From Ectocarpus siliculosus (Eukaryota > Sar > Phaeophyceae > Ectocarpales > Ectocarpaceae): a stretch of DNA of 64,000 nt. The DNA is taken from NCBI GenBank assembly GCA_000310025.1, contig FN649728.1:1-64000 (forward strand), written 5' to 3'. Shown piece by piece: positions 5,821-46,532 of the stretch. A program made the translations under genes and the position numbers. The stretch's first letter is position 1; every line of letters starts with the position of its first letter. Below the pieces are notes generated by a model that was not told the DNA's origin, ran no database searches, and saw only the letters and a list, made by a program, of their open reading frames with translations.

Positions 5821-5879
5821 ATAAGAGAGAAGGAAGATTTTTGGTACAGCTACCATTTTTCAACCTGCATGCCCGCCGG

Positions 5880-8229
5880 TGGTTTTTGTTTTCGTGTGTG
5901 AATCAGGTATCCTGGATATTGGGGAAGACCGTTTCATATACCATTGCTTTTCGGATCGGTCAGTCAACGTGCACTTTACACTAGCATCCGAAGCGCCCCA
6001 TCTCTTCATCGGCCGCGTCCCGGACTTCAGTGCCGTCTTGGCACGCTGCATCGACATCCTCGCCGGTATGTGCACCGGGAAGACGTGCGGGACGGAGCGC
6101 TTTTTCGACGTTCATCCCGACGCGACGATCCTCATCATCTGCCCTCGCAAAAGCATGTGCTTTGCCATGACTAGGCGCCTCGAGAAGCTCGGCTTCCAGC
6201 TCTACACGTCAACGATGGATGCAAGGCGCCTGGTGGTCGAGTACGAGAGCATCCACAAGCTTCAGAGGATCTACGACGTCATCTATATGGACGAGATCCG
6301 GAGCGTGCTGTCCACGGCCGTCTGCTACGCTACGAACCGCCTGAACGCCACGCGCCACCTGGACAGGCTGGGGAACTCTGTACCAAAGCGAAGCACACCA
6401 TTCTCACGGACGCCGACTCCAACTTGGACTGCGCCGTGGACCTGTTTCGCGACAGCTTGTTCCGGCCGGAGGATGTCAAGACCATACGTCTGCCCGAGCC
6501 GTTCATGGAGCGCAAGTTCAAGTTCATGAGCAAGCCCGCGACGTTCAAGAAAATGTGCCAAGATCTGCGCAATGGTCACCGCGTCGTCGCATGTGTTGCG
6601 TCTGCCAAGATGCTCAGGGGATGCATGAAACACCTGAAAACATTCATGGACGAGAGCCTGGTCACGGGATACTTTGCGGCGGCCGACAACAAGGACGAGC
6701 TGTTCGACGTCAACCAGTACTGGGGCAAGTACAAGTTCACCGGGTACACCTCGACCGTGACAGTTTCGCTGGACTTCGCCGAGCCCGTGTACCGGGTCTA
6801 CATCTTTCCCAACAAACACTCGTTCCGCCCGCGCGAGGGGTTGCAGGGGTCTGGTAGGTCGAGGGATGTCATTACGGGTGAAGTCATCTTGGCGATGGAT
6901 TCAAACTGTCGGTACATGCCCCTCGAGCGTGGCTACGACTTCAAGGCAGACTACGAGCGGGAGCTGAAGTTCCTCACCGACAGGCGCGCCGCCGTCACGT
7001 CGTTCAACAGCCTGACTGAGAGGGAGCGAGAGCAGGATGGTTCGTTCACGGAGGAGCTCACGGAGGAAGGGGCTACGTGCACGCCGACCCTGTACACCAA
7101 ACTATGGGCGGTCGACCGCGCCGAGCAAGCGCTCAAGCTGCGGGCCTGGTACCCCCATCTAATATGGATGCTCGAAAAGAAGGGCTACAAGGTCGAGTAC
7201 GCTGACGAGCTCGAGTACGCCGACGAGCTCGAGTCCGCAGGAGAAGAAGAAGAGACAGCGGAAGGAGAAGAACCCGACGAGGAAGCAGGGAGCGGGAGCG
7301 GGGATGGGGCCGACATCGTAAGGAAGGTGGCTGTTGCCGCAGACGCAATCGTCGCACAAGAAATCGAGGATATGGACGGCATCGACGCCACCGAGCTTGA
7401 CGATGAGTGGGAGGATGTCATGAACAAGAAGCACACGAGGGACATGCTGTTACACCAGGATAAACTCGCCCTCCGCAAGTACCAGGCGCAGAAACACTTC
7501 AAGGATGCGCTGACCGGCCAAGACGTGGCGTTCTTCGAGAAGCACAAGAAGGCCATCCTGTACCGTATCCTGGAGCGGGACGCGACGACAGCCGAGCTCT
7601 TTGCCAAGAACAAGGAGGAGGTGGAACGTGTTCGGCGCGTCGACATGGAGGACGTCGTCTCTCAGGACTACAATGTCAGGACAGCTCTACTAAAGCTAGT
7701 CAGGGATGCTGGATACGAAGGTTTCGGAGACGACACCACCGAAGTGTGCCTAAAGGAAGCAGGGGAATCTGCTGAAATCAAGCTCAGCATTGGTGCGGTG
7801 CAACAGCTCGTTGGCGGATCGACCAAGAAGAACACCACACTGGCAGGCGTGCTGAAGCCTTGGCTGCTAAAGTACATGGGCCTGAAGCTGCATACACGCC
7901 GGGATGGAAGGGGGGAGAAACGGCGCATGATGTACCGTGTGAAACCCTGCCCGGACATCGAGGAGTTTTCGCTGAGGAAGAACACCGTGTATGACCGCGT
8001 GATGGGGCGCAAGCAGGGCGCTAAATATGCACCGCCCGGTCAGGTAAACGAGGGGGGCGGGGCGGGAGCGGAAGCGTTTTGTGGGGATGGGGCTGGGACA
8101 GGAGCGGAATCGGGGGCTGGGGATGGGGCTGGAGCGGAAGCGGGGGCTGGAACGGGGAGTGGAGTGGAGGATCAGAATATGGACATTCGCCAGTTCATCT
8201 CCATTAAGCGCAAGGCTTCTAGCCAGTAG
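5880..8229 (+). pseudogene. UL9-like (herpes origin-binding type) superfamily 2 helicase part
   Basis: A Walker A-like AGMCTGKT lies near 6063-6087 and a Walker B-like YMDEIRSVLS near 6286-6315, spaced as in origin-binding-protein helicases. A long frame from about 6424 to 8229 carries the helicase C-terminal half. It is followed by a very acidic linker (7200-7310) and a domain of about 75 residues at 7670-7960 that recurs in the HNH protein. The tail is a Gly/Ala/Glu-rich repeat (8050-8170). Overall the part looks slightly damaged relative to the family. Confidence 0.6.
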
Positions 8230-9209: not shown

Positions 9210-9439
9210 TCTTTGAGTGGGTGGTGGTGTGTGAGTCGATGGGTTTGCCTCCACTTGCTGCCGAGAAATTAAACGATATAGATTGTCCAAACGGCGTACA
9301 GTAACAACCCGCCGCACGCCGCATTTTTTTTTGTACGGGGGTACGTGTCACCACAACTCCTGCATACCGTCCTGTGCAAATGTAAACGCTCGAATCTGGG
9401 TATGCTTCACGCCCCCACGCCGGTCATTCGTCAGCGAAA

Positions 9440-10180
9440 ATGATCGAGTTGTACACATTCTCTCTTGGTGCATGGAAGCCAATCCTTCTCGATGGCACCA
9501 CCATCCCCGTCAAACGAGAGTTCATTACCCCGAAAATGAGAGATGTCATGTTCGCCGAGCAAACCGGGGAGTGTAGCTACTGCAGGAAGGCTATTACGCA
9601 GTCGCCTGCTGATTTCGACTGTGACCACATCGTACCCGTTAAGCACGGTGGTCCCACGTGCAGGGCTAATCTACATCTGCTCTGCGTATCTTGGCACAGA
9701 ACAAAGTGTGCTCTAGAAATGTGCACAGGCACATCCACCCACGCCAGCGAATCTGTTCTCGTGAGGACCGATCCGGGGTTCCCCACCGTAAAACCGACCG
9801 ACTTCCCCGGACTCAAGCCGGGAATATACCCGCTGAATTACGGGGAACAGAAACCTCCGCGCCAATGCGCGATCAAGAAACTCTCCACCAAACGCCAGGA
9901 TACAACACCAGCGTCGGCCGAGAAGCGCAGTCTCTCTTTTGTTCCCGTGCTGGATGCATTCTTGAGGCACCTGGGGTTCACTGGAGTGGATGATACCACG
10001 TCCGAGATATGCCTGAAACACGTGGACACGGAACACGAGGAATATATCCGGCTACTCGAGAAACTTCGCAGGATCGACGGTGGTAATGTTCTGAAAAAAT
10101 CAATCAGCCTCAGTGGTATGCTTGGCCCGTGGCTCATGCACTACGCGGGCGTGACGTGGGTGAGGCGACAAACGGGTTAG
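9440..10180 (+). CDS. HNH endonuclease with a primase-helicase-type C-terminal domain
   Basis: A 246-residue frame from ATG 9440. The HNH nuclease is at residues 43-92: CSYCRKA, then DCDHIVPVKHGG with the metal-binding His, then ANLHLLC and a final W-H-R-T-K-C. After a linker, residues 175-243 (FLRHLGFTGVDDTTSEICL through MLGPWLMHYAGVTW) closely match the C-terminal domain of the UL9-like helicase (GYEGFGDDTTEVCL, LKPWLLKYMGL). This suggests both proteins bind the same target or partner. It probably nicks or cleaves DNA. It belongs to the fossil module, but this frame itself looks whole. Confidence 0.7.
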   Translation: MIELYTFSLGAWKPILLDGTTIPVKREFITPKMRDVMFAEQTGECSYCRKAITQSPADFDCDHIVPVKHGGPTCRANLHLLCVSWHRTKCALEMCTGTSTHASESVLVRTDPGFPTVKPTDFPGLKPGIYPLNYGEQKPPRQCAIKKLSTKRQDTTPASAEKRSLSFVPVLDAFLRHLGFTGVDDTTSEICLKHVDTEHEEYIRLLEKLRRIDGGNVLKKSISLSGMLGPWLMHYAGVTWVRRQTG

Positions 10181-31746: not shown

Positions 31747-34700
31747 TCAGTTATAAACGCTCTTCTTGACGGGCCTTCTCGATCTTTGCCGACTGGAATG
31801 TGAGCCGAAGCCGCACTTGTCCAGATCACCGTCGTAGTCCATGGCAATGCCTGATCGACTGCACAGACGAGAATAAGCCAAACGTCCAAAGTCGGAGGGA
31901 GGGGGGGGGGATAACATTCTTACGATGATGCTGGTATTGTCACAAAGGTGGGCCCTTAACCAAAAACACGGGCAAATAGTCGGGGGACAATGAGCAATGA
32001 GCGGACCCACTGCCGTCTCAGATCCCTGACATGAAAACCAACGTTCAAAACAAGGTCCCTCGGCTATACTGTATCCAAACCGAAGCTACGACCACGCTGT
32101 ACCCTGACAAGGCTACGCTGAGAGTGACTTGAGGATATGAGGCCGTCAAGCGAAAACTTGACCGAGCCAGATTCTCAGGTGGGATCTCGACGCCCTGGTT
32201 CACCATTGATGGGGTACAGTATTCGAACAGTTCGGTATGGACTGCGGGCAAAAACATTAGCCTCCGTTCGCACATGGTTCAGCCAACGGTATATATACCG
32301 CTTGCTGCTAGCATGGTCGGTCGCAGTCATGAATCTTAATCATGCTCTTGGCTTACCTGTTGCATTGTGCGTTGATGCCGATGTTGGAGATGTAGTGGAA
32401 CCATTGAGTAGGGACGTACAGGACTTCTCCAGCCTTAAGCAGCACCTCGGATATTAGCGTCTGTCCAAAGAGGGAGAAGTAAACACCGGGGCGTTCATCG
32501 GGCACATTGTTGAGCAGCCATCCCGAGTTCTGCAACGCTACCGTTGTATCCAGCGCGTCAACACGAACGGGCAACTGAGATCCCTCGTCGCTACACGTGG
32601 GCATACAAATAGTCCACCCAAGCATGTGTTGGTGTGGAAGGGCAATCTTGCTGTAAGCACGTGACGTTTTCAAACCAACCCACTGCTGTGCAAGGCCTCA
32701 TCAACAACCTCATGAGACTACAGTACCGATTCCCACGGGTATCCTCACCGCACCACGGAAAATTTCCGAGTAAAAACCGGGGTACCGTAACACGTGACAC
32801 GACGTTCCTACATGGAAAACCATCGTCTACCAAGCCCTAGCCACCAACAAACCCCGGATGTGTCAGAGTTTTTCCGCTTTTCGAACGTATCGGAGGCTCT
32901 GCAAGAAGCGCCCCCAAACCCTCGCTCGCCTTCGGGAAATCGGGGAACTTGTCCAAGTCCGGGTTACTCCAGTCGACATCGCTGTGCCTGCCCGACGGGT
33001 GCGCTTTCGGAAGGAGATACATGCTTTCACACTGGTTCGGGTGAGCCATGATCCATCGCCTGACCCCCGAAACCATGGCCACCATGTTGCGGCTGCCGTC
33101 GAAATGCGCTTCAGCGATTACCTTTGGCCCGTGCGAAAAGAACAGGGGACACAGGATGCGATGCGATGCATGTGCCATTCTCAGGGACGGTATTTATGAA
33201 AGAGGCTGGTCAAGTGCATCTTCACAGTACATGTACACAAAATCAACGTCGACAGCAGGTGTTAACGACCACCGTCAACCCGAACGAATCAGGTCACTAC
33301 CGCAAGGTGCAGCAAGTACACCCACTCAGACCTCAAAACAGAACAACACCCCACCATGGCGCCAGAAGAATAAACTCAAAACACGGAGCAGCTGGGTGAA
33401 AAGCTAGGATGCATGCAAAACACACCGTGCGGCACGATTGAGCACTGTACCACATCGAGCCCGGTTGCACAAAACAACAAGCCCCGTTAGGTCGTTCGGC
33501 TCGACAAAAAACAGACGAGAGATGTACAGCACAGCCGAACACAAAAGACTACTCGACAACTTGCGAAACTTTCATCTCACCCCAGGCATGCCGAATCTGC
33601 AGTGGATCCCCCTTTGCCCACGCGGGTCTACCAGGAAAATGTTCCCTTTCCCATTCTCCGGCTTCTGGAAAATCTCCATCTCGTTCAGCACAACCTGGAG
33701 GAGGAAGATAAGAAACACCAAGGGCACGGTTCCACCCACAGGGAGGGTTAAGGGTGTGTGAAAACAGTTGCATGTCGTTTGTCGAAGGCGGGGGGCGGGG
33801 GATGCTGGGATGGGGTTGTTGTTACAATAGGGTTGGTTAGTGAACCGGCAGGTTTCTTAACAGTCACATATCCTTGGGTACATGCGTTTCATCGGTGCTC
33901 CCACCGCTTTCGGACACCCTTTCAAAAAACCACTATAGCCAACGCTAGGCGACAACAGAAGAGGGGTACCACTACAGAGGAAAACAAAGAGCAGCAAAAA
34001 CAACGAAACCCCCATGTTAACCCTTTTGAGTCTTCAGGCGTTTTGACTGATCATTGATCGATCATTTGCAAATGCTGGTGTAGTGGCAAGTCGTGGAGTT
34101 GCCGCCCTGCCGCCCTTCGCGCCGGGTATTGGCAAGTCCATAGATAGGTGTGTCTAGATTATTGGCACCCGCGCTAACCGGCTGACGAATGAAAAGACGT
34201 CAGTGACAGCGGGTAAAATCAAGATCTCGGGTGGGGCCAATCAATGCCAAATCATGAATCTCTCATATGTCTATACATGTACGTGTGTGTGCATACATAA
34301 ATACATACATATGTGTTATTTCGTAGCACCACACATACCCATCCTCGCCCGAACGTAGAAAGCCACTGCTGCAAAGAGCAGAGGGCAACAAAAGGGAGGG
34401 GTATTGCAAGCTCTGCGGAAGCCCAGATATCGAGGATATCGTGTGGTGTGCTGCATCTCCCAACAATTTGAAAATCGTTCCCAAGATCCAGCAGTCATCG
34501 TGTCAGCAGCTACAACGCTACAACAACACTAACACTGCTGTAGACGAGCAAAACAAATCAGCAACACATCCACACTCGTAGCGCCACACATCCCCTCGCC
34601 CCGGATCTAGAAACCACGAGGTACAGGGGTGTGCTGGTGGGTGTGCTTGTTGGTTGAAAAACACAGGAGCTCTAGAGAGCTGGCAGGGCACATTTCGGGG

Positions 34701-37467
34701 GGGCACAGAGAACCCGAGAAGTACAGAAGTACAAATACCAGCTATGGGTCTTCACTGATGATTTCACCTCTCTGGACTGATCATTTACAATATGCCGAAA
34801 ATAGACTAGTTGAGGCAGCTAGACGACTGATCATTTAAAAGTCTACACAGCTAACCTGCCCTACTGACCGCAGCGCGACCACCCATCAACCCTTCTACGA
34901 CCCTGTCTGTGGCCACCACCCTGTCGCCGGCTTCCCTCATGGCCTACAGGTGGAGATAGCTGTTGCGTGTGTACAAGTACACTGGTGTCTTTCTCTGCAC
35001 TTGTCTCTTTCCCGCTCGCTCTCGCTCTCATTTTTGTTCGATGTGGCGAAAAGAAATCTGACAGTCCAGCCTAGACCCAAAGGGGTTAAAAGCCCCCAGG
35101 GCGCGCCAAGAAACAGCGGCAAAGGAAACTACACGCCTTAAAACGCCGTCGATGAGTCTCTGACTAATTATTGGGATCATAAAAAACACGATCCACATGG
35201 CCAATGTGGACACGATATCCTTTACGATCTTTCGATAGTTGCCATTTCCCACAAATATGATGCAAGGGCCAGCCAACCTCAACCGCCACTGTTCTTATTC
35301 CCGTGTCCAGTCTGCTGCCGGACACGTAAGTGGGCTACTCTCGTAGCACAGCAGCTGCAACAACAACTTCAACAGTTTTCGTAGAGAAGGGCTGAGTGCA
35401 ACGGTTCACTCACAGCGCCAACCAAAAAGCACCACATTTTCAGCTCTCAGACAACCCAGCGAAACGAGTCCAGCGAAACAATGGATGTTGCTATTTCGGT
35501 TCACGCCAATTGAATAGGCTGCGGCTCTCCACCTTGTTGTTGGCATCCCCGACCCTGAAATACCAGTGCTCTCCGTCCCCCTTCCCGTGCTTCAAGGCTA
35601 GGTCCAGCCACTGGCGGTAGCTCAAGTTTACCGAATCAGTCGGTGGCTTCCAATCAGTCAGGTTGAGTTCCGAGTGCTGGGCATGCTTTGCCTGTTTTGC
35701 CTGTTGCCATGTCAAAGTGTAAGGCAAAGAAATGCAGGAAGGCAGGAAATCACTTAGTTCGGGTTCAAGTTCAATGCTTCTCTCTACATCATGATGCTAC
35801 ATGTACATGGATATTGCATACTCGTGCCGGCAACAACAACAACAACGTAACGCGCACCAGTTTGTGGTTGAAGTACATGAAGTGATTGTCCGTGGAGTGC
35901 TCCGTGGCATACTTCCTTGTGGCCCCGAAAATCTTCTCCATGTAAGCCGGGTCACTCCATCGCCCAGACGCAGCATCCACCGAAGGAATGTTGTACAAGA
36001 TGAATGGCTGCACCGTCACGAAACAGAGACGAAAAGTCATTGGTTGCTAGCACCTAGAGGGTACAACACTATCACTGGTGACTAACACTGGTGAGAATTA
36101 GGAGACGGAATGGAAAAAGGACAGCTGCGAGCTCCCGCACGTTTCCTAGTATTGTGCTGTAGGGAATGTGGAGCGCACCGGAATCAACAAGACAACTCAA
36201 AATCTGGAAGCCGAGCAGAGAGTGGCCCGTAGCACCATCTAAAAAAAAGCAGCAGAGGGCACACGATACAAGCAGGGGATCTCGTCTGGTCGATCTGGTC
36301 CAGGCCAGCTGATAACGTCACCTACCAACCAAAATCTCTTCCAGCATCACAGTATCACCACCATCCTCTTTCGAGGATAGGTGCCACCTGCATATGTTTG
36401 CCTACAACGCAAATAATAGCTCGCCTTTTCCGCGGAGCTGTACCTCTCCGCCTTGGCCAGCTCTCGCTGGTAGTCGAACCTGAGGTTGGAATGAGCAACA
36501 TGCGAACACCCCTTCATCGATACAGCCAAGACACCCATCGAGGGCAAAAAATTCGTACTGTCGATTCGCACATCAGAACATGCCATTACCCGGCAATCGC
36601 GCAGCAAACTTCAGAAATGGCACCAACGTCAATCGCACGCAACGTCAATCGCATGCAAAGTAGAGGACTCCCAACCACCGGTGGGTATTGGTCGACTTAG
36701 CTAGCTGTGGTCGCTGACCGCGATGTCACCAGGTCTTCCTGCTGCTTCCGAACCCAACCACTCTGCTCCTAGAGGCATGCATGACAGCAGTCACCTGCAT
36801 GTAGAGAGATAGTGAAGCGGCGGAACTTGGTCGGCATCGTCCGGGTTCCAGTGGTTGATGACGTCCATGGCAGGGTAGCCCTTGGGGTAGTCGGCCGGTG
36901 GCGTGTCGGGACACTCGAAGGCCTCCATTGGCATACTCTTGAACTTGCTGAGAGTGCAAAAACGACGACGCCGACAGGGGTAGAGGACAGCGAGCTGTGT
37001 TGCCGCGAAGACGAGGCAAAAGCTACCCAGCGACCAACCAATCAAACATCGGTGTACCAGGTCGAAGACCCGGAAACAGCGCACGTGGGGAGCCAGCTTT
37101 GAGAGTACGGGTCGGCATTGGAGACTTTAATAGTAATACCAAGCGCCTACATCGAATGGAGCATTCGTCTTGGCATCCCATCGAGAGCGACCGATCCAAG
37201 CAATTGCCAACAAAAATAGGAGGGCCAAGGGATACATGCACACGTGTGCCAACTTGCAGCAAGTACGGACGAGTGCTATAACAAGAAGCAGCTAAAATAG
37301 AATAGAATAGACCACAACCAAACAAGTCCTGCAATGAAATCGCATCGCAAAAAAGACACACAGGTTCACGGTTGGAGAAATACAGTAGGGCTTGGGACCG
37401 GGTTGGGGACATGCCTGGCGTGGTGAGAAAAACGATGCAACCGAAGCCCAAAGGGCGTTCGCTACTC

Positions 37468-37500
<33 letters not shown>

Positions 37501-40500
37501 GCTGTGTGACTAAAGCAGACTGACCTAGAAGCCATGAAATCCGGAGCGAGAGGGTCCACCACCCTGTCCAGTCCCCGCATGTGCTCCGGCGTCGCGTAAA
37601 AATCCTCGTCACTAATCTGCGGAATCGAAGGTACCTTCAGAGCACACGTGGCATGGCAAGCGTACACGTGGGGCAGGTGTCGGTTGTAGCTCAGACAATT
37701 GGTTGACAGCAGTGAAGGAGCAATTAAACAGGGGGTAGACACACAGAATTCATCTTCCTGACCCCCGAGCCCCTGGTCTGTTCTTCTGGAGCATTTGCGG
37801 TGGCTCACGAGGCAGGGATACGATGTGGGCACCCCCGAGAATTGGGCTGACCAATATTTGTCGTGTCCGATCTCCTGGGGACAATGAGCGGCACGTCAAG
37901 CCATGTTGGGGGGCTAACACAACCGACGCAAGACATGGCAGCGTGTCACCGATGCTTCCACATCATGTCCTACAAGTAAATAAATAAATATATTTTTTAA
38001 CTGATCGATGGACGTTACGTACAAACTCACAGCTTACGAGAGCACAAGTACTTCTTCTCAGAAAAAATAGCGGTTGCTCACGTTGCCCATTTACGTGATG
38101 GGGTACCAATGTCCCGTGGATGCCACACGCACGCTACATAGCAGCAGAACTCGACAAAAAAAACGATCGGATTTTCTATCGATAAGCTATCGCACCTCCC
38201 CCTGTGCACTGCGCTTGTCGCCTGGGGAATACCCCACCGCTAGTTCTTTGGGGATTGATGAGGCAGCAACTCCAGCCTCGTGTAAGCGGGGGTAGAAGGG
38301 CTCGAGAATGCTGCTCGCCGCTTGCTCGACTGACTCGCCGAACACGTGCACGAAAATGCAACAGGACAGGACAGAGAGATAACGACACAGAAAGGAGACG
38401 GAAGGACGAGTCAGACACAAACCATGATGAGCCATCTCTCCGTAATAACGCTGAAACGTAGGAAGGCAAAACGTTTCATATCAGATATATTGTTAAGGAC
38501 GCTGCCGTCGCCGGTGGAACGGATCGCTCCAGATAGCTTGTCCATGCTCCCTGCAGTATTACACGCGCGAATGGCTGTCGCGCAGACTTATCGGGCTGTC
38601 GTATCCAATGGCAACCGCAAATGCCCATGTTGAGGAGGAGGCTCGAAGAGGCGTTGTGGACGGGTCCACTCTCCCTCAAACCTCAATCTGATACGGTGTT
38701 AAGTGTTAGATAAGACCGATACCACCCTTCCAACTCCAACCTAATACTATCGTCAAGAGAAGACCGATCTCGCCGTGCCATGATTCTTGAATCAGATCTT
38801 ACAACTTGCCGTGCACAGCTGCACCTTGACCGAAGGTCAACCGATTGAAGACGTCGCCCAAAAAACTACCACCACCATCTCATCACATCACACCACGCCT
38901 CATCAATCGTGTCCTGACGTGGGTCACGCCCAGGCTGCTGCTGTGGTATGTAACCCTGACAACACAAATCGTCCCTCGTCCGTTGACCCTAGTCCTCTGT
39001 CCCTCAAAAGACGACATACGCATAAAACCGCTCCAAAAGTGGTCTCCATGACCCCCTACATCACATCATCATCGTCAATTGGACCAGCACGGACATAAGA
39101 AGGTACTGAGCGGAGACCGGAACGGTTTTTTATGTGAAGACAACAACAACAACAACAACAACAACATTGCAACATCAACCCTATTGCAACAATTGGACGT
39201 TGTCGAACGACACCGGTCAGGCAATCTGGGAGTCAAATAACAAAAGAGGAAGCACGACTGCCGTCGGCAGTACGACATACCCCCGTAGCCTGGTACTACA
39301 GTACATACCTTCGGGGGATGCATGGTCCTCTTTCGCCTTGGTGTCGGGGGAGAAATTGTACGCCTCCCCACGAGACTTGGCGTACCAGCTCGATATCTGT
39401 CATATCCATAGTATATGACACCACGCCCAAAATAATGGGCAAGGGAGGCAACGCAACACGGGCCACAGTGAGATTGTGCCACGTCACCCAAGGCCAGTGT
39501 AGGGGTGCACGATATATCAACCCAACCCATGTACAACCCTCACACCAGGTGTTGGTTCCACGTGCTTCATTCAAAGAATAAACGTTACCAAGCACGTTTG
39601 ACAGAAGGAAAGAGAGAGAGAGAATACCTTCATGGTGGTGACAGTCGCACACACTCAGCTACTTTCAATGTTTTCAAGTCCAAGGAGGGGGGCAACAACA
39701 AAAATACAAAAATAGAGCATAATCAAAATCCTAGAGCATCACACCCCCAGAGCACCTCATCAACCCCGCTTACATGTAGCCACCCACAACAACCCCAGCG
39801 GATGACACCAACCGAACGACACCAAAAACGGAACGACGCCAAACGAAACGACACCAAACGAAACGACACCAAAAATGAAACGACGCCAAAGACCCGCCGC
39901 ACCTCGAGCGCGTAGTACTCCTCTTCCGGCGTGAGTGGCGCCTTGAACAGCTCCGACATCACGGGAACGATGGCGTTAGGAAGGGTTTCGTAGTCCACCG
40001 CATGCCCTTCAGCCCCCCCGCTTGCCGCGGCGTCATCCACGGATCCCAACGCCGACTCCACCAGCGTCGCCTACACGCAGGGAAGCGACAACGCACAGAC
40101 ACCGATCGCGGTTCTAGGGTGAGAACCTTGAACATTGTCTTGTCATCGATTCCAGCGCAGCCACCCCATACCGTTGCTACAAGTCAAGGCAACCACCAAC
40201 AGCAGCAGCCATTCAAAGCTTGAACGCGGCGCACGTCTTCGCCTGCCGACGCGACGTTCAACACCAAAGGCCGGGGGCCGAGATTTAATCGCAACAGCAT
40301 GGAGGGCCTCAGGAAGAAGCCCTCAGAATGACCCCAGCAATACAAGGTGCGAGAGAGAGAGAGACTAGACTCTGGCGTAGTGGACGCGTCATGAAGTTGC
40401 AAGCGTACAGGTATGCATCTTCTAGAGAGACCGAGGGAAAGAAAACGCAAGGAAGCATCCACTCCAATGCTCGACGCCATCTCAGACTTGGTTCAGACTC

Positions 40501-43500
40501 TCACCAAGTGTGCGGCGCAATAGCGCTCGTCGGGAGCGTTCTTAGCCTCCGAGGTCGACATCCCCAACAGCTTCGCGGTCTCATCGGGGGGCGCACCCAT
40601 GGAGCGCAGGCACGGCGTACTTCGGCTCGGACGTTGGCGCTGAAGAATGAAGACAAGGCAGGCGTGTGCACAGAGAGGGCGGGGTGGCAGTGGCAGGGAA
40701 ACAACAATTTCGGGGTGGACTACACGTAACGAAGCACATGGTACATGGTGTATCCCGATCACGACACAGCAATTACTGCTGTCGTCTGACGTATAAAAAA
40801 ATCTTCACGTCATTTCCTGTATGCCAACTCTCGATATCAACACCCGAACACCCTAACAGCGTGGCGGCTGAAGGTCAAGGGTCACTCACCATTCCAGCCT
40901 TGAAGCCCAGCAACGACATCATCACCGGCACAGGGTCGCGGTACACGAAGACCCATGGTGTGTTGGGGAAGGCCTGCATCATCCCCAACAAAGCGCAACA
41001 AGGTACAGTAGACGAGTACGAAAGCGAATGTCGGTTCGAGGGCCAACGTTGTCATCATGTCCATTTCGCCAATATAGAAACCTTACCATGGCACTGCTGT
41101 CATAGTACCTCGTGCGTACTGTACACATGCCACGGACAGGCGGCGTCGCCAGGTCCCCTTGCTCATGAGGATGCTGGCCTCATCTGAAGGCACGCGTCGG
41201 AACGAACCCATTGCTTACAACGTCCAGCAGGAAAAGGGGGGCCTAACTGCCGACTCCAAGCTACGGCGCAAGTTTCTGTCACCATCGTCTCAAAAACATT
41301 CTCCACGCCATCGGCCACACCAGGATGCAAGTCAGTCACCTGCACATGCACGATACCGCCTGCTACGGACCATAAAGCAAACGCAAGAAAGTAACAAACC
41401 TTCCGGTAGTAGTGGATGAACCGGGTCTGGCTAGACTGGAACTTGAAGAACATGTGCTTGTGGAAGGATGTCTTGCCCATGGCCAGAATAACCGTGCGAA
41501 GCGCTGCCACCTGTCGTCAACACACACCACGACCAAAAAAACAATTGTGATTTGAGACCAATCAACACGCGGAGTTTGTCATACTTTCACATTGGACGGG
41601 GAAAAGCACAACTAGCGCAACAGCATGCTCCACGAACGTCGACGGCGAACACCCCCCCTCGAGGCCCGCCTTTGACTCCTCCGCTCATTCCTTCGTCGCC
41701 AAGACCAATAACCAACCGCTGCCCACGCCAACTAGCCCTACCTAACGCAGCCAATACAAGCACTTATCAGCACCTACATATGGAATTGCTTCCTCAACTG
41801 CCGTATTTCGTTGTGCTCCAAGGGATGGCACGCTCTGACCTGACCACGACCAACGAAAAAAACGCAGTATCCGTACAAAAAAAACCACGGTGCTACATAT
41901 GCCGTCGAGGGGCTGATTTTCGTGATCACCATGATTGTCACTTCTCACCCTCTGTTCCTCCGTGCAGCGCACTTGATCGCAAAGCGACATAACAGCGACT
42001 GGCGGCTTGGACTCCGAGTAGACGATATTGTGGGGGGAGGACCCCATGAGGTTCGCCGTGAGGGTAGAGCCACACCGCGACATGTGGAACACGAACCCCG
42101 TTGGCTCCAGGTAGCCGTCAGGGTTAGCGTCGATCTCCTCCTGTTGTTGATGATGACGATGATTGTCCAGTAGAGTACCAACAAATTCGGGGAGGGCAAA
42201 AGAGAAGAGACGGAAGAGAAGAGAGAGTCAACAGCCCGCACATAGACAGTGCCACCACCCCTGACCTACATATAGATTGATCGGATCGGACGTCAGAGAT
42301 GCAATGCAATGCCCAACCTTAAACATCGTCTCTATCACAACGGGACATTGTTTGAACCCAGTTGATTGAAAGCACATGCGATCGATACTCCGGCACGCTC
42401 GGAACCATGTGCTTTGGCACCACACATTTGTAACCTTTATCACCCGAACGAAATATCTCTCGAGTGTCCTAGCGGCATCTGCGGTCGTAAAAGTAGGAGG
42501 ACTACAGTACGAAAAGAAACCGTGCACTTACTTGCAGCTTGGAGATGCTAGTAGTTGTAGATTGTGCTCCTTGACACCCACCGGACAGCCTCACCAGGTC
42601 CTGCGAGAGTACATGCATTAACAGCACGGTGGCACGGTGAGATAGAGAGGTGCGGAGAATGTATAAATAGCAACCACATCCTGCACCTCCGACAGTTGAT
42701 TCAAAACCCCATTACGATGGAAAGCCGATACAGCACCTCGTACAACACGGGATTCTCTCTATCGTGCACATCAATATTACTATTGTTGGTGGGTGAAAAG
42801 ATGAACCCTTTCGGTGAACGCGGCTTCACTACACCACACCACACCACACCACACCACACCACACCACACCACACCACTGTTGATGTTCGTGGGCAGTGAA
42901 AAATCGAACCAACACCTACAGCACTAGTCTACATTAGCAATGCGCAGGAGTACAGCACGTCCATGCATGTATCAGTAGGAGATGTACACTGCTGCGACGG
43001 CAGCACGGGTAACACGATACCACATTCACTCACCTTGAACATGGGATACTTGTACGGCTGGTGGAAGTATGTATCCCGGTCCAAGCTGCACATGAACACC
43101 TGAAGATACACCACGTGTACAGAGAACACGAAACGCAAAGTTCAGCTCAATTGTTGGGGCGGGGTACACTAATACTTTGCCTTCGATTTTTAATGCGAGT
43201 ACAGCACTCTCTTCCCTCTGTGTACACACGAACTAGCGCTTTCCACCCAGGCCAGGAACGGCAGCGAGAGGAAAACTCACCTTGGAAGAAAAGCTCGCTT
43301 ACGCCGGGATTCGAACCCTTGACCCTGACCACTAGAAGGGGATACCAACTAGATTATAGAAATTGCAAATAGCCAGGCAGAGACAGAAATAGGCGTTTCG
43401 AGCAGCACATCCAGCTTGCTGCTGCATCCTCTGTTGCTCTGTTGAATACATGAACCCTGCGTCTACACAAGTCGACTCGATCGACAAATTCTCCACCAGC

Positions 43501-45886
43501 CTCCTGTACACGTGCAACACATATGTTGTAGGAGTACTCTCACGCTGAAGCGCGATTTCTGGAGCACCACTTTGTCCTCTGATACATTATGTATGCTTTT
43601 TTGTTTCCACGAGAATTCGAGAATTGTCCGAGGGTGTTAAGCATAGCACGTCAGGAGTATCGGGAAGAAGGCCAAAGAACACACCAACCCACCGAGTAAA
43701 TTAGCGGGTATCAGCATCATTCAAAAGTGCTGTTGATCTGTGAAACAACATAAATACTAATACTTTGAAGTATTCCCCAAACCCATAGGATTTTCAATAA
43801 TATATAGCTTGCAAAGAGAAACACACAACACACAACACACAACACACAACACACAGGGTACCTTGTGCGGCGGTTACGGCAGGACCCAACACCCAAGGGG
43901 AAGCCTTGTAAAGGTATCGGGTAAGTGAAAACGCAAGCAAGGGTATCACACGCACACACAGCAGTAGGCACTTGCAGATGTCATTGATAACTTACCACAC
44001 CACAACTATTACTACTTTGTTTTCGTCGTTGGTGTTTTTTTTTCCAGCCGACCGCATGTATGCTCTCAGAAGATACAGTACAGCAGTCGTCCCTGCTTTA
44101 AAGACACACACCTTGAGTCAACTCCCTACTTGAAAGACACAAAAAAATCTCCGAAGCAGGGTGCCCCGCTAATGAACAAAATAGGGGGGGTACTGTTTTC
44201 AGCGTTCGATACCCCCAAAATGATGCTGTGCGGGAGGCGGGAGGACACCTTTCCAACTGCACGGCACAACAGACAAGGCAAGCGATTTGCTGCTACTTCC
44301 ACTACTGCGTACTGTATGGGTACGGAAAAATTCTGAGGACGTATGATAGTTTTTAGTACAATCGTTGTTTATGTGTTCGTCTTTGGTCCGTTTTCGTGAA
44401 TCTATGCTTGGCTTGGTGAATTGTTATTAAATTCCAGTGCTGCCTGCACTACATATACCCACTTTTCGAACAATAAATACAATAAGGTGGGGGGTGGAGT
44501 ACTACAATGTGAAAGTTCAAAGAGAGCGAACCACGCCGAAAACATATAAGAACGTGCGACTTTCAACCACCACCACGTTGTGATCGTCAGATCGTCAGGT
44601 TTGTTCATGATGTTTAGTATCTCAGACAGAGTGTGTCTTCAAAGCGCTTTGAAGTGTCTTTAACGAGGGGAAGTGTCTTTAAGACTCCGGGGATGATAAC
44701 ACACTATCCATCGGAGGTGTATGTACCATACGTACGTCAAGAGACGCGCAATTTGCAGCAGGGATAAAACGGAGTGTGTCTTCAAAGCGGGGTCGACTGA
44801 AATATGGCCAAGGGACTTTACGTATCTTCAATGTCAACAAGTAACTACGGGAGCACATGCTCAACCAGATGAAGCCTCAAGCCTGTGGTACACTTTCCCC
44901 TCTAGGCACTAGGGTATATACATGATGGTACCTCCAGGCCCTGTTGGGAGCCCAAGACCTCTCTATTATGTAGCCCTCCTGGTTTGAAAAGTCGTCCACG
45001 ATGTAATCAAGCAGTGGAACAGCAAGGAACATGTGCTAATTTATATTTTATATCCCGTTCGACTGCTGTGTGGGTATATCTCGAATGGGTACAAAAAGTC
45101 TTTCTGTGTGTGTTTTTATTATTCCTTAATTATTTAGTGGTTCTCACACACTCCAAGTCTCTACAAATACTCCGGGCGAGAGAGCCGATGCGGAGAGACT
45201 CTTTACTCTCTTCCGATAGCAGATAACCAGGTGTAGCCTACTTGCAGCGCACGGACTGCTGTACACCAGGGTTGAAGGGCACTTGGTTAGCGAAAGAATA
45301 CGAAACTCAGCAAAACGATGCCTGTAGGGAGCCCTGCGCAGCGAGAGCGTCAGGATTGGAGCTCTTTCATCTACCGGCGTGTGCCGTACCGCATGGTATC
45401 TATCCATATGTAGCAATAGCAACGTGTGTGTCTCCCTTTCTTCGGGCTATTTCCGGTTTCCGACCAACTGCTGCCGGCTGTCCGTCCCAACGTTTCTCTA
45501 TCTGCTCCCGAACAGCGAAAGACAGACAGGGTGCAACATAGAGGCACACACGACGAATTCTAGCACAAGCTCATAGTCGCCGCTGGTCGCGATCGACATA
45601 CCTGAGCGTCCAGCGTGCCCCCTGCGACCGATCCGATGGGTCTCCCGAGGTTCACAGGCACCGTCTCGGCCGGCACCCTTACGTCAACGAACCCCACAGA
45701 CGGCCCCACTGTTTCCACACCCCCACCCAGGCCGCCTGCCAACCGGGGCACTACTGTCCCCACAGCGACAGAGATGAGGACGCAACAGGCGGTCACTCGA
45801 ATCAACGCGCCCCATCCCTCGCGCCGTTGGTCCACCCTCTTCCTTCGAGGCGAAGAGGGCGGCATATCCGCGTTCCGGCGTCTCAT
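31747..45886 (-). CDS. Membrane-anchored sulfotransferase-JmjC fusion protein
   Basis: Eighteen well-supported exons (high to low): 43034-43099, 42532-42600, 41973-42140, 41400-41510, 40890-40973, 40505-40639, 39903-40070, 39309-39396, 38196-38329, 37525-37616, 36795-36947, 36425-36479, 35858-36007, 35533-35676, 33581-33694, 32930-33121, 32357-32460, 31747-31858 (TGA). All are in phase: 712 residues. Two likely 5' exons, 45602-45886 (ATG) and 44922-45035, make about 845. The N-terminus is basic and then hydrophobic (VTACCVLISVAVGTVV), a type II anchor. Sulfotransferase domain: MSRCGSTL (PAPS 5'-phosphate loop), WVFVYRDP (3'-phosphate site), VDYETLP, and its C-terminal helix in exon 38196-38329. 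That same exon starts the link to the cupin_8/JmjC domain: AHFDGSRN (HxD iron ligands), LLPKAHPSGRHS, VLYVPTQWFHYI (distal His). Two introns use GC donors. Location in Golgi-type membranes is inferred. Confidence 0.85.
37469..37501 (+). repeat. (CAGA)n microsatellite in an intron
   Basis: About eight CAGA units just below exon 37525-37616 of the fusion gene. Confidence 0.95.
39092..39166 (+). repeat. (CAA)n-tailed dispersed repeat, copy C
   Basis: AAGAAGGTACTGAGCGGAGA, then CCGGAACGGTTTTTTATGTG, then a (CAA)n tail. It links the two forms seen at 19018-19106 and 19345-19395. It lies in an intron of the fusion gene. Confidence 0.75.
39818..39893 (+). repeat. Short tandem repeat, core ACGACACCAAACGAA
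   Basis: About five imperfect units just downstream of the donor of exon 39903-40070. Confidence 0.8.
42830..42876 (+). repeat. (CCACA)n microsatellite in an intron
   Basis: About nine CCACA units in the intron above exon 42532-42600. Confidence 0.95.
43298..43359 (-). repeat. tRNA-derived SINE-like head, copy 2
   Basis: Shares the B-box GGTTCGAATCC, CCGGCGTAAG and the A-box region ATCTAGTTGGTA with 4211-4282. It is degenerate and lies in an intron. Confidence 0.65.
43821..43855 (+). repeat. (ACACACA)n short tandem repeat
   Basis: About five 7-base units in an intron region of the fusion gene. Confidence 0.9.
45052..45129 (-). repeat. Dispersed repeat, copy 2 of 3
   Basis: Inverted copy of 3108-3174 with two short extra stretches, one turning ...CCCACAGTCG into ...CCCACACAGCAGTCG. 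It lies just upstream of the acceptor of the candidate exon 44922-45035. Confidence 0.85.
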
Positions 45887-46310: not shown

Positions 46311-46532
46311 TACCGTATATGACACAAGATAACACACCCCGTGGACCGATTTTCAAAGCTCGATTACTCCACGACGAAGAGGATGCATAAACGAAACAAT
46401 ACATTTTCGAAAACCTCTCGACGAGACGGTTCCAACGCCGCCGTTTTCGGCGCTGTGACTCTTCCTGCTGTTGAGAAATCGAGCTTTGAAAATCGGCCCC
46501 AGGGGGTGTGTTATCTTGTGTCATATACGGTA
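46311..46532. repeat. 222-bp foldback (MITE-like) element
   Basis: Inverted arms 46311-46365 and 46477-46532 begin TACCGTATATGACACAAGAT and end AAAGCTCGATT, with only about three differences and a one-base length change. The 111-base centre has no coding potential. No clear target-site duplication is seen. Confidence 0.8.

Follow-up and report, generated by a model that had tools for sequence, protein, structure and literature searches.

A candidate Ectocarpus gene joining a membrane-anchored sulfotransferase to an FIH-like JmjC/Cupin_8 oxygenase

On the minus strand of a 64,000-nucleotide stretch of Ectocarpus siliculosus DNA (contig FN649728.1, positions 1 to 64,000; hereafter the window), exons resembling a sulfotransferase are followed by exons resembling a JmjC-type oxygenase, an arrangement that raises the question of whether the two enzymes are parts of a single membrane-anchored protein or the products of two neighboring genes. 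Our best model, assembled manually from exon translations and candidate splice junctions, places an anchor, a sulfotransferase and a JmjC/Cupin_8 domain in one gene, which we infer to be read as a single transcript. Taken as a whole, the locus probably represents a single nuclear gene for a type II protein of the secretory pathway, with a PAPS-dependent sulfotransferase in its N-terminal half and, C-terminal to this, an Fe(II)/2-oxoglutarate oxygenase of the FIH-like JmjC (Cupin_8) type.

The model comprises an unbroken frame of 823 residues that runs through 19 exons, from an ATG at 45886 to a TGA at 31747 on the minus strand, with no stop codon in between (Table 1). The original prediction had described 18 consecutive exons with every junction in phase; the phasing holds throughout, but the count does not, there being 19 exons linked by 18 junctions. 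The three exons that flank or form the domain boundary (39396-39309, 38329-38196 and 37616-37525) fall exactly where they had been placed, and the predicted MSRCGSTL, YRDP and HFD...H signatures can all be found in the translated model. Sixteen of the 18 introns are GT-AG and two are GC-AG; the latter, one after exon 13 (which ends at 36425) and the other after exon 17 (which ends at 32930), share the donor AAG/GCGAGC (exon/intron). Both are supported by homology, as the protein aligns without gaps across the two intron places to an oxygenase paralog on contig C24 of the Ectocarpus genome (189 Mb in 492 contigs, to which C-numbers refer here). In our model of the C24 paralog, a GT intron lies at most one codon from the first of these places, and the second is intron-free.

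Table 1. Parts of the modeled gene, with positions in the window.
Feature	Position	Strand	Content	Basis
Exon 1	45602..45886	-	Start codon, basic N-terminus, single hydrophobic segment (~aa 27-47), putative luminal stem	Frame and hydropathy
Exon 2	43034..43099	-	Sulfotransferase region begins, CSLDRDTYFHQPYKYPMF	
Exon 3	42532..42600	-		
Exon 4	41949..42140	-	Presumed 5'-phosphosulfate (PAPS) loop HMSRCGSTL; H, R, C, G, S, T and L columns invariant (6/6)	
Exon 5	41400..41510	-	MFFKFQSS strand	
Exon 6	40890..40973	-	YRDP...S, presumed 3'-phosphate site; R and S invariant (6/6)	
Exon 7	40505..40639	-		
Exon 8	39903..40070	-	VDYETLP	
Exon 9	39309..39396	-	WYAKSRGE...FSPDTKAKEDHASPE	
Exon 10	38196..38329	-	Very probable last sulfotransferase helix VEQAASSILEPFYPRLHEAG, then linker	
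TAG stop in exon-10 frame	38187..38189	-	Two codons past the donor; possible sulfotransferase-only end	
Intron 10	37617..38195	-	579 bases; junction between the two domains	
Exon 11	37525..37616	-	Linker, then first part of the N-terminal oxygenase region, MRGLDRVVDP; similar in the C24 paralog, RGLRRMVDG	
Exon 12	36795..36947	-	DYPKGYPAMDVINHWNPDDA	
Exon 13	36425..36479	-	Followed by a GC donor	
Exon 14	35858..36007	-	PFILYNIPSVD...NHFMYF	
Exon 15	35533..35700	-	SYRQWLDLA...HWYFRVGDA	
Exon 16	33581..33694	-		
Exon 17	32930..33121	-	Presumed iron-site HFD; R at the 2-oxoglutarate position; followed by a GC donor	
Exon 18	32357..32460	-	Presumed distal iron histidine, QWFHYI	
Exon 19	31747..31858	-	SRSGIAMDYDGDLDKCGF and stop codon	

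The C-terminal domain clearly belongs to the Cupin_8/JmjC oxygenases. Residues 536-779 match Cupin_8 with an E-value of 1e-21 (78.5 bits against a cut-off of 27.4), and JmjC_2 is matched barely above its threshold (22.2 against 22 bits). Among solved structures in the PDB, 39 distinct sequences match at E <= 1, the best being FIH (1.3e-21) and the next JMJD5 (3.4e-13). The alignment with FIH contains an ungapped core of 97 residues that spans both the HxD motif and the distal histidine, and the HxD...H triad is present: its HFD and distal H align with the iron ligands of FIH. At the column of K214, the lysine through which FIH contacts the carboxylate of 2-oxoglutarate, both this protein and the C24 paralog have an arginine and an oxygenase paralog on C12 has a lysine; the arginine may do the job of the FIH lysine in 2-oxoglutarate binding, and the domain may thus still be active.

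The N-terminal domain is, as judged by profile and motif, a divergent sulfotransferase. It scores 17.8 bits against Sulfotransfer_3 (PF13469) within the whole protein and 21 bits as an isolated domain, both below the Pfam cut-off of 27, and a comparison of this half with the PDB gave no significant match among solved structures (best E 0.24). The same family is matched at E <= 0.1 by all three members of our sulfotransferase set A1 (best 3e-7) and by five of the six members of relatives set A3 (best 6.4e-6). When this gene is aligned with five relatives, all six rows agree in the PAPS loop and in the R...S pair; sulfotransferases of this family use the loop (HMSRCGSTL here) as the 5'-phosphosulfate site and the R...S pair as the 3'-phosphate site. 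A sulfotransferase half that has lost catalysis and now gives the oxygenase a membrane-tethered stem or targeting region, a reading compatible with the others considered here, would fit the divergence of the domain, its score under the Pfam cut-off and the alteration of two columns that are invariant in the other five relatives. Eighteen of the 20 such columns are nonetheless kept, including the PAPS loop and both 3'-phosphate-site residues, and we consider a dead domain very unlikely.

Distant, uncharacterized relatives of the sulfotransferase half occur on alphaproteobacterial plasmids. A plasmid collection yielded four records with such a relative (tblastn E 5e-15, 3e-9, 4e-7 and 4e-3), from Tistrella (two), Azospirillum and Agrobacterium, and the same four were retrieved with a Tistrella query; 23 records in this collection hold a weak Cupin_8 relative, and neither half had relatives in collections of viral contigs and genome contigs. 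Like the sulfotransferase described here, the bacterial proteins have an HxxRCGSTL loop, an R...S site and a D...K...helix end, but their frames, 343-350 residues long, lack an oxygenase domain, and they are 22-26% identical to the algal sulfotransferase domain. Of three scanned at E <= 0.01, one matches Sulfotransfer_3 below the cut-off and two match no family.

These bacterial proteins also help to locate the end of the fold. The original prediction had assigned the last sulfotransferase helix and the start of the linker to one and the same exon, exon 10, and the alignments agree: three of the four bacterial tblastn matches enter this exon, reaching residue 316 of the 320-residue query, and the fourth stops at residue 298, within exon 9. 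The bacterial relatives end in a D...K...helix...RL pattern that is much like exons 9 and 10, and the first 20 residues of exon 10 score 97 against the tails of five relatives that we picked for the comparison, a value that 6 of 2000 shuffles attain. Thus, the sulfotransferase fold very probably ends within exon 10, and the linker follows.

At the other end of the domain, exon 1 encodes a likely membrane anchor. Hydropathy averaged over 19 residues reaches 2.28 at residues 28-46, the eight most hydrophobic spans of this length all lie within residues 24-51, and the sequence ahead of them contains nine R/K and three D/E by hand count, giving a net positive N-terminus; a single N-terminal hydrophobic segment with a positive-inside flank is the arrangement of a type II anchor. 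The stem encoded by exon 1 is weakly similar to the sulfotransferase paralog on C28 (E 0.025), and a single-domain paralog on C16 has an anchor-like segment, MPRLAVLISGCSVFLVLSWAMVAIR, in the same open frame as the start of its sulfotransferase, which supports the view that the anchor is ancestral to the group. The type II anchor proposed earlier is accordingly backed by hydropathy, by charge and by the C16 paralog. With such an anchor, both catalytic domains would be luminal, and the protein would consist of a cytosolic basic tail, one membrane segment, a luminal stem, the sulfotransferase and the oxygenase, in that order.

Whether the two enzymes are joined turns on intron 10. We consider it likely that they are fused in one gene, because the joining intron has ordinary splice sites, the gap is of intron size and both domains show homology to their families. 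In a leave-one-out scoring whose model was trained on this same gene, the donor of junction 10-11 (7.5) ranks ninth of 18 and its acceptor (5.2) eighth of 18, values that are ordinary for the gene. The minus strand of the window has 54 donor-like sites scoring at least 7.5 (true sites excluded) and the plus strand 53, or 0.0008 per base, and within the exons of the gene one of 2282 positions is such a site; by arithmetic from the window rate, about 0.02 in-phase donors of this strength would be expected in the approximately 80 bases between the helix and the following stop. Acceptor-like sites scoring at least 5.2 are frequent, the minus strand of the window having 292 of them (0.0046 per base), and the acceptor therefore adds little to the case for fusion. 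The length of intron 10 is near the median of 531 given for Ectocarpus introns in PMC6337836 and far below the median of 2529 given there for intergenic regions; the same source, whose Ectocarpus exon and intron sizes are similar to those of this gene, gives a mean 3'UTR of 845 and remarks that introns and intergenic regions of this alga are readily mistaken for each other.

The principal alternative is a pair of tandem genes on the same strand, an anchored sulfotransferase that ends at the TAG at 38187 and an FIH-like oxygenase that starts in or near exon 11, with the in-frame join being fortuitous. When the exon-10 frame is read through its donor, this stop appears just two codons on and yields a candidate sulfotransferase-only end, ...AQGEVR. 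Exon 11 contains an in-frame ATG (HMRGL); the abundance of acceptor-like sites points the same way, as do single-domain paralogs of each half in this genome, among which the C16 sulfotransferase frame stops soon after the same helix. The earlier claim that the two domains cannot easily be split was thus too strong, given the TAG at 38189-38187 and these paralogs, and a single fused gene stands as the best model, on splice sites, spacing and domain homology, rather than as the only arrangement that the locus allows. Tandem genes would, however, need a chance donor as good as that of exon 10, which the window offers at the low rate given above, and would have to fit a 3'UTR, a promoter and a 5'UTR into about 570 bases, when the values given in PMC6337836 are 845 for the 3'UTR and 2529 for intergenic regions. 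The open frame of exon 11 offers no start ahead of HMRGL. A separate anchored start for the oxygenase is also hard to find: the stretch from 39308 to 37640 has 61 ATG-to-GT candidates able to join exon 11 in phase, the top-scoring among the best 12 of them is exon 10 extended to an ATG upstream of it, and the only ones of these 12 with a strongly hydrophobic segment are two upstream-extended forms of exon 10. On this evidence, we regard two separate genes as unlikely.

The upstream-extended forms of exon 10 raise a further reading, in which the locus makes two products, the full fusion together with a short anchored oxygenase that begins at an ATG at 38435 and/or a form in which intron 10 is retained and only the sulfotransferase is made. 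The open frame concerned, MAHHGLCLTRPSVSFLCRYLSVLSCCIFVHVFG..., enters exon 10 in frame and has a mean hydropathy of 1.88 over 18 residues, but a pyrimidine-rich intron end would encode hydrophobic residues by chance, and there is no independent sign of a start near 38435; we consider a second product of this kind highly improbable.

The candidate fusion has single-domain kin elsewhere in the genome. Tblastn, spliced alignment and profile searches of open frames show that its four closest paralogs all have one domain, a sulfotransferase on C16 and C28 and an oxygenase on C24 and C12. The fusion probably originated from a stand-alone gene for an anchored sulfotransferase, like the one on C16, that became linked to an oxygenase gene similar to that on C24. 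In flanking DNA, covering about 10 kb upstream of both oxygenase paralogs and about 14 kb downstream of both sulfotransferase paralogs, a possible sulfotransferase fragment upstream of the C24 oxygenase (LPETPWLYLYH) was rejected as a chance match, the profile search giving E 0.48 with no neighbors; the spliced alignment that contains this stretch scored 124.5, against 97.6-100.4 for three shuffles. A stray oxygenase match beside C16 (107.7, against 98.0-118.3 for three shuffles; E 0.58) was likewise set aside, as were an oxygenase match beside C28 (103.5) and a sulfotransferase match on C12 (80.8), both weaker than the C24-side score. Among the matches listed, 20 Cupin_8 places and 28 sulfotransferase places (some of them duplicates) share contig C2 only, where they lie more than 2 Mb apart, in a comparison that overlooks divergent copies, the sulfotransferase of this very gene not being among the listed places. 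Separately, the best Cupin_8 match of the genome (114.6 bits, C12:1483464-1484381) covers most of the domain in one frame with two internal stops, which suggests either a gene with few introns or a decayed copy. The fucose pyrophosphorylase gene of the genome is on C26, and as none of the Sulfotransfer_1 matches listed is close to it, the published brown algal cluster could not be recognized there; Beta_helix has 16 matches in the genome, which are not decisive for a brown algal origin.

What might such a protein do? Protein side chains are the targets of FIH and JMJD5, and because these two enzymes account for most of the solved structures closest to the oxygenase half, the comparison favors a protein substrate for this half over a glycan. 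Most likely, the oxygenase would hydroxylate secreted or wall proteins on their side chains in the lumen of the ER or Golgi, and the same cargo would be sulfated by the sulfotransferase. A narrower version is a processive enzyme whose JmjC domain adds a hydroxyl to a secreted protein, on a side chain, and whose tethered sulfotransferase sulfates that new hydroxyl to give a sulfo-hydroxy amino acid; we think this rather unlikely, and we know of no enzyme pair that makes such a product.

The surroundings of the bacterial relatives may bear on this pairing. A gene resembling Asn synthase adjoins the sulfotransferase, or lies one gene off, in three of the four loci (annotated in Azospirillum, annotated and matched by Pfam in Tistrella pTM1, and, in pTM3, a frame of similar appearance by eye), and a PqqD-family gene is adjacent in two (annotated in Azospirillum and Tistrella pTM1, and matched by Pfam in the latter), as is usual in operons that modify peptides. 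In at least two of the four loci, the sulfotransferase has an iron oxygenase no more than about 3 kb away, belonging to 2OG-FeII_Oxy_5 in Tistrella pTM1 and encoded by a JmjC_2 gene on the opposite strand in Azospirillum. These neighbors offer only a hint of a pairing of sulfation with oxygenation, since the count of two in four comes with no background rate, no iron oxygenase is annotated near the Agrobacterium gene, and JmjC_2 genes are common ribosomal oxygenases. The Tistrella pTM1 operon itself (L051:2855-7041), with its Asn synthase, sulfotransferase, PqqD and 2OG-Fe(II) oxygenase genes, looks like a peptide-modifying cluster that pairs the two reactions. In Azospirillum, WP_199228728 (L049:4770-5807) is annotated as an aspartyl/asparaginyl beta-hydroxylase; its core, together with the PAPS loop, aligns to the sulfotransferase family, and it matches no Pfam family at E 0.01; its name looks wrong.

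Both halves of the Ectocarpus gene belong to known families, and their combination was not found in print, a keyword search of the open-access literature having returned, among the papers listed, no description of a sulfotransferase paired with a JmjC/Cupin_8 domain. The small JmjC hydroxylases FIH, JMJD5 and JMJD7 share with it, by sequence, the JmjC/Cupin_8 domain and the HxD...H iron site; FIH differs in binding 2-oxoglutarate through a lysine where this protein has R, and to our knowledge none of the three occurs with a sulfotransferase or with an anchor of this kind. Pfam's own cut-offs would report only the oxygenase families (Cupin_8 and JmjC_2), making the gene easy to overlook. Were a single transcript confirmed, 2-oxoglutarate oxygenation would be physically tied to sulfation in one gene, providing one expressible protein with which to seek a coupled modification in the secretory pathway. 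A sulfotransferase also takes part in a fusion described for another brown alga, Nemacystus decipiens, in PMC6418280, but its partner there is an alpha/beta-hydrolase rather than a JmjC oxygenase; that account reports RT-PCR, and its authors want the fused mRNA to be examined further.

The window also contains features outside the gene. An element of about 220 bases (46311-46532), situated some 425 bases upstream of the gene's ATG, has 34-base inverted ends that are 97% complementary. With positions 46330-46505 as the query, 40 of 2388 first-look candidates in the genome were scored, all of them 98-100% identical and the element's own copy included, and the element looks like a member of a recently active MITE-like family. 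On the plus strand, 5825-6529 matches Herpes_ori_bp (E 4.8e-7), 6175-8229 matches this family below the cut-off (E 0.0056), and an open frame at 9386-10180 matches an HNH endonuclease (E 2.7e-7); the frames at 5825-8229 and 9386-10180 possibly belong to a replicative mobile or virus-like element.
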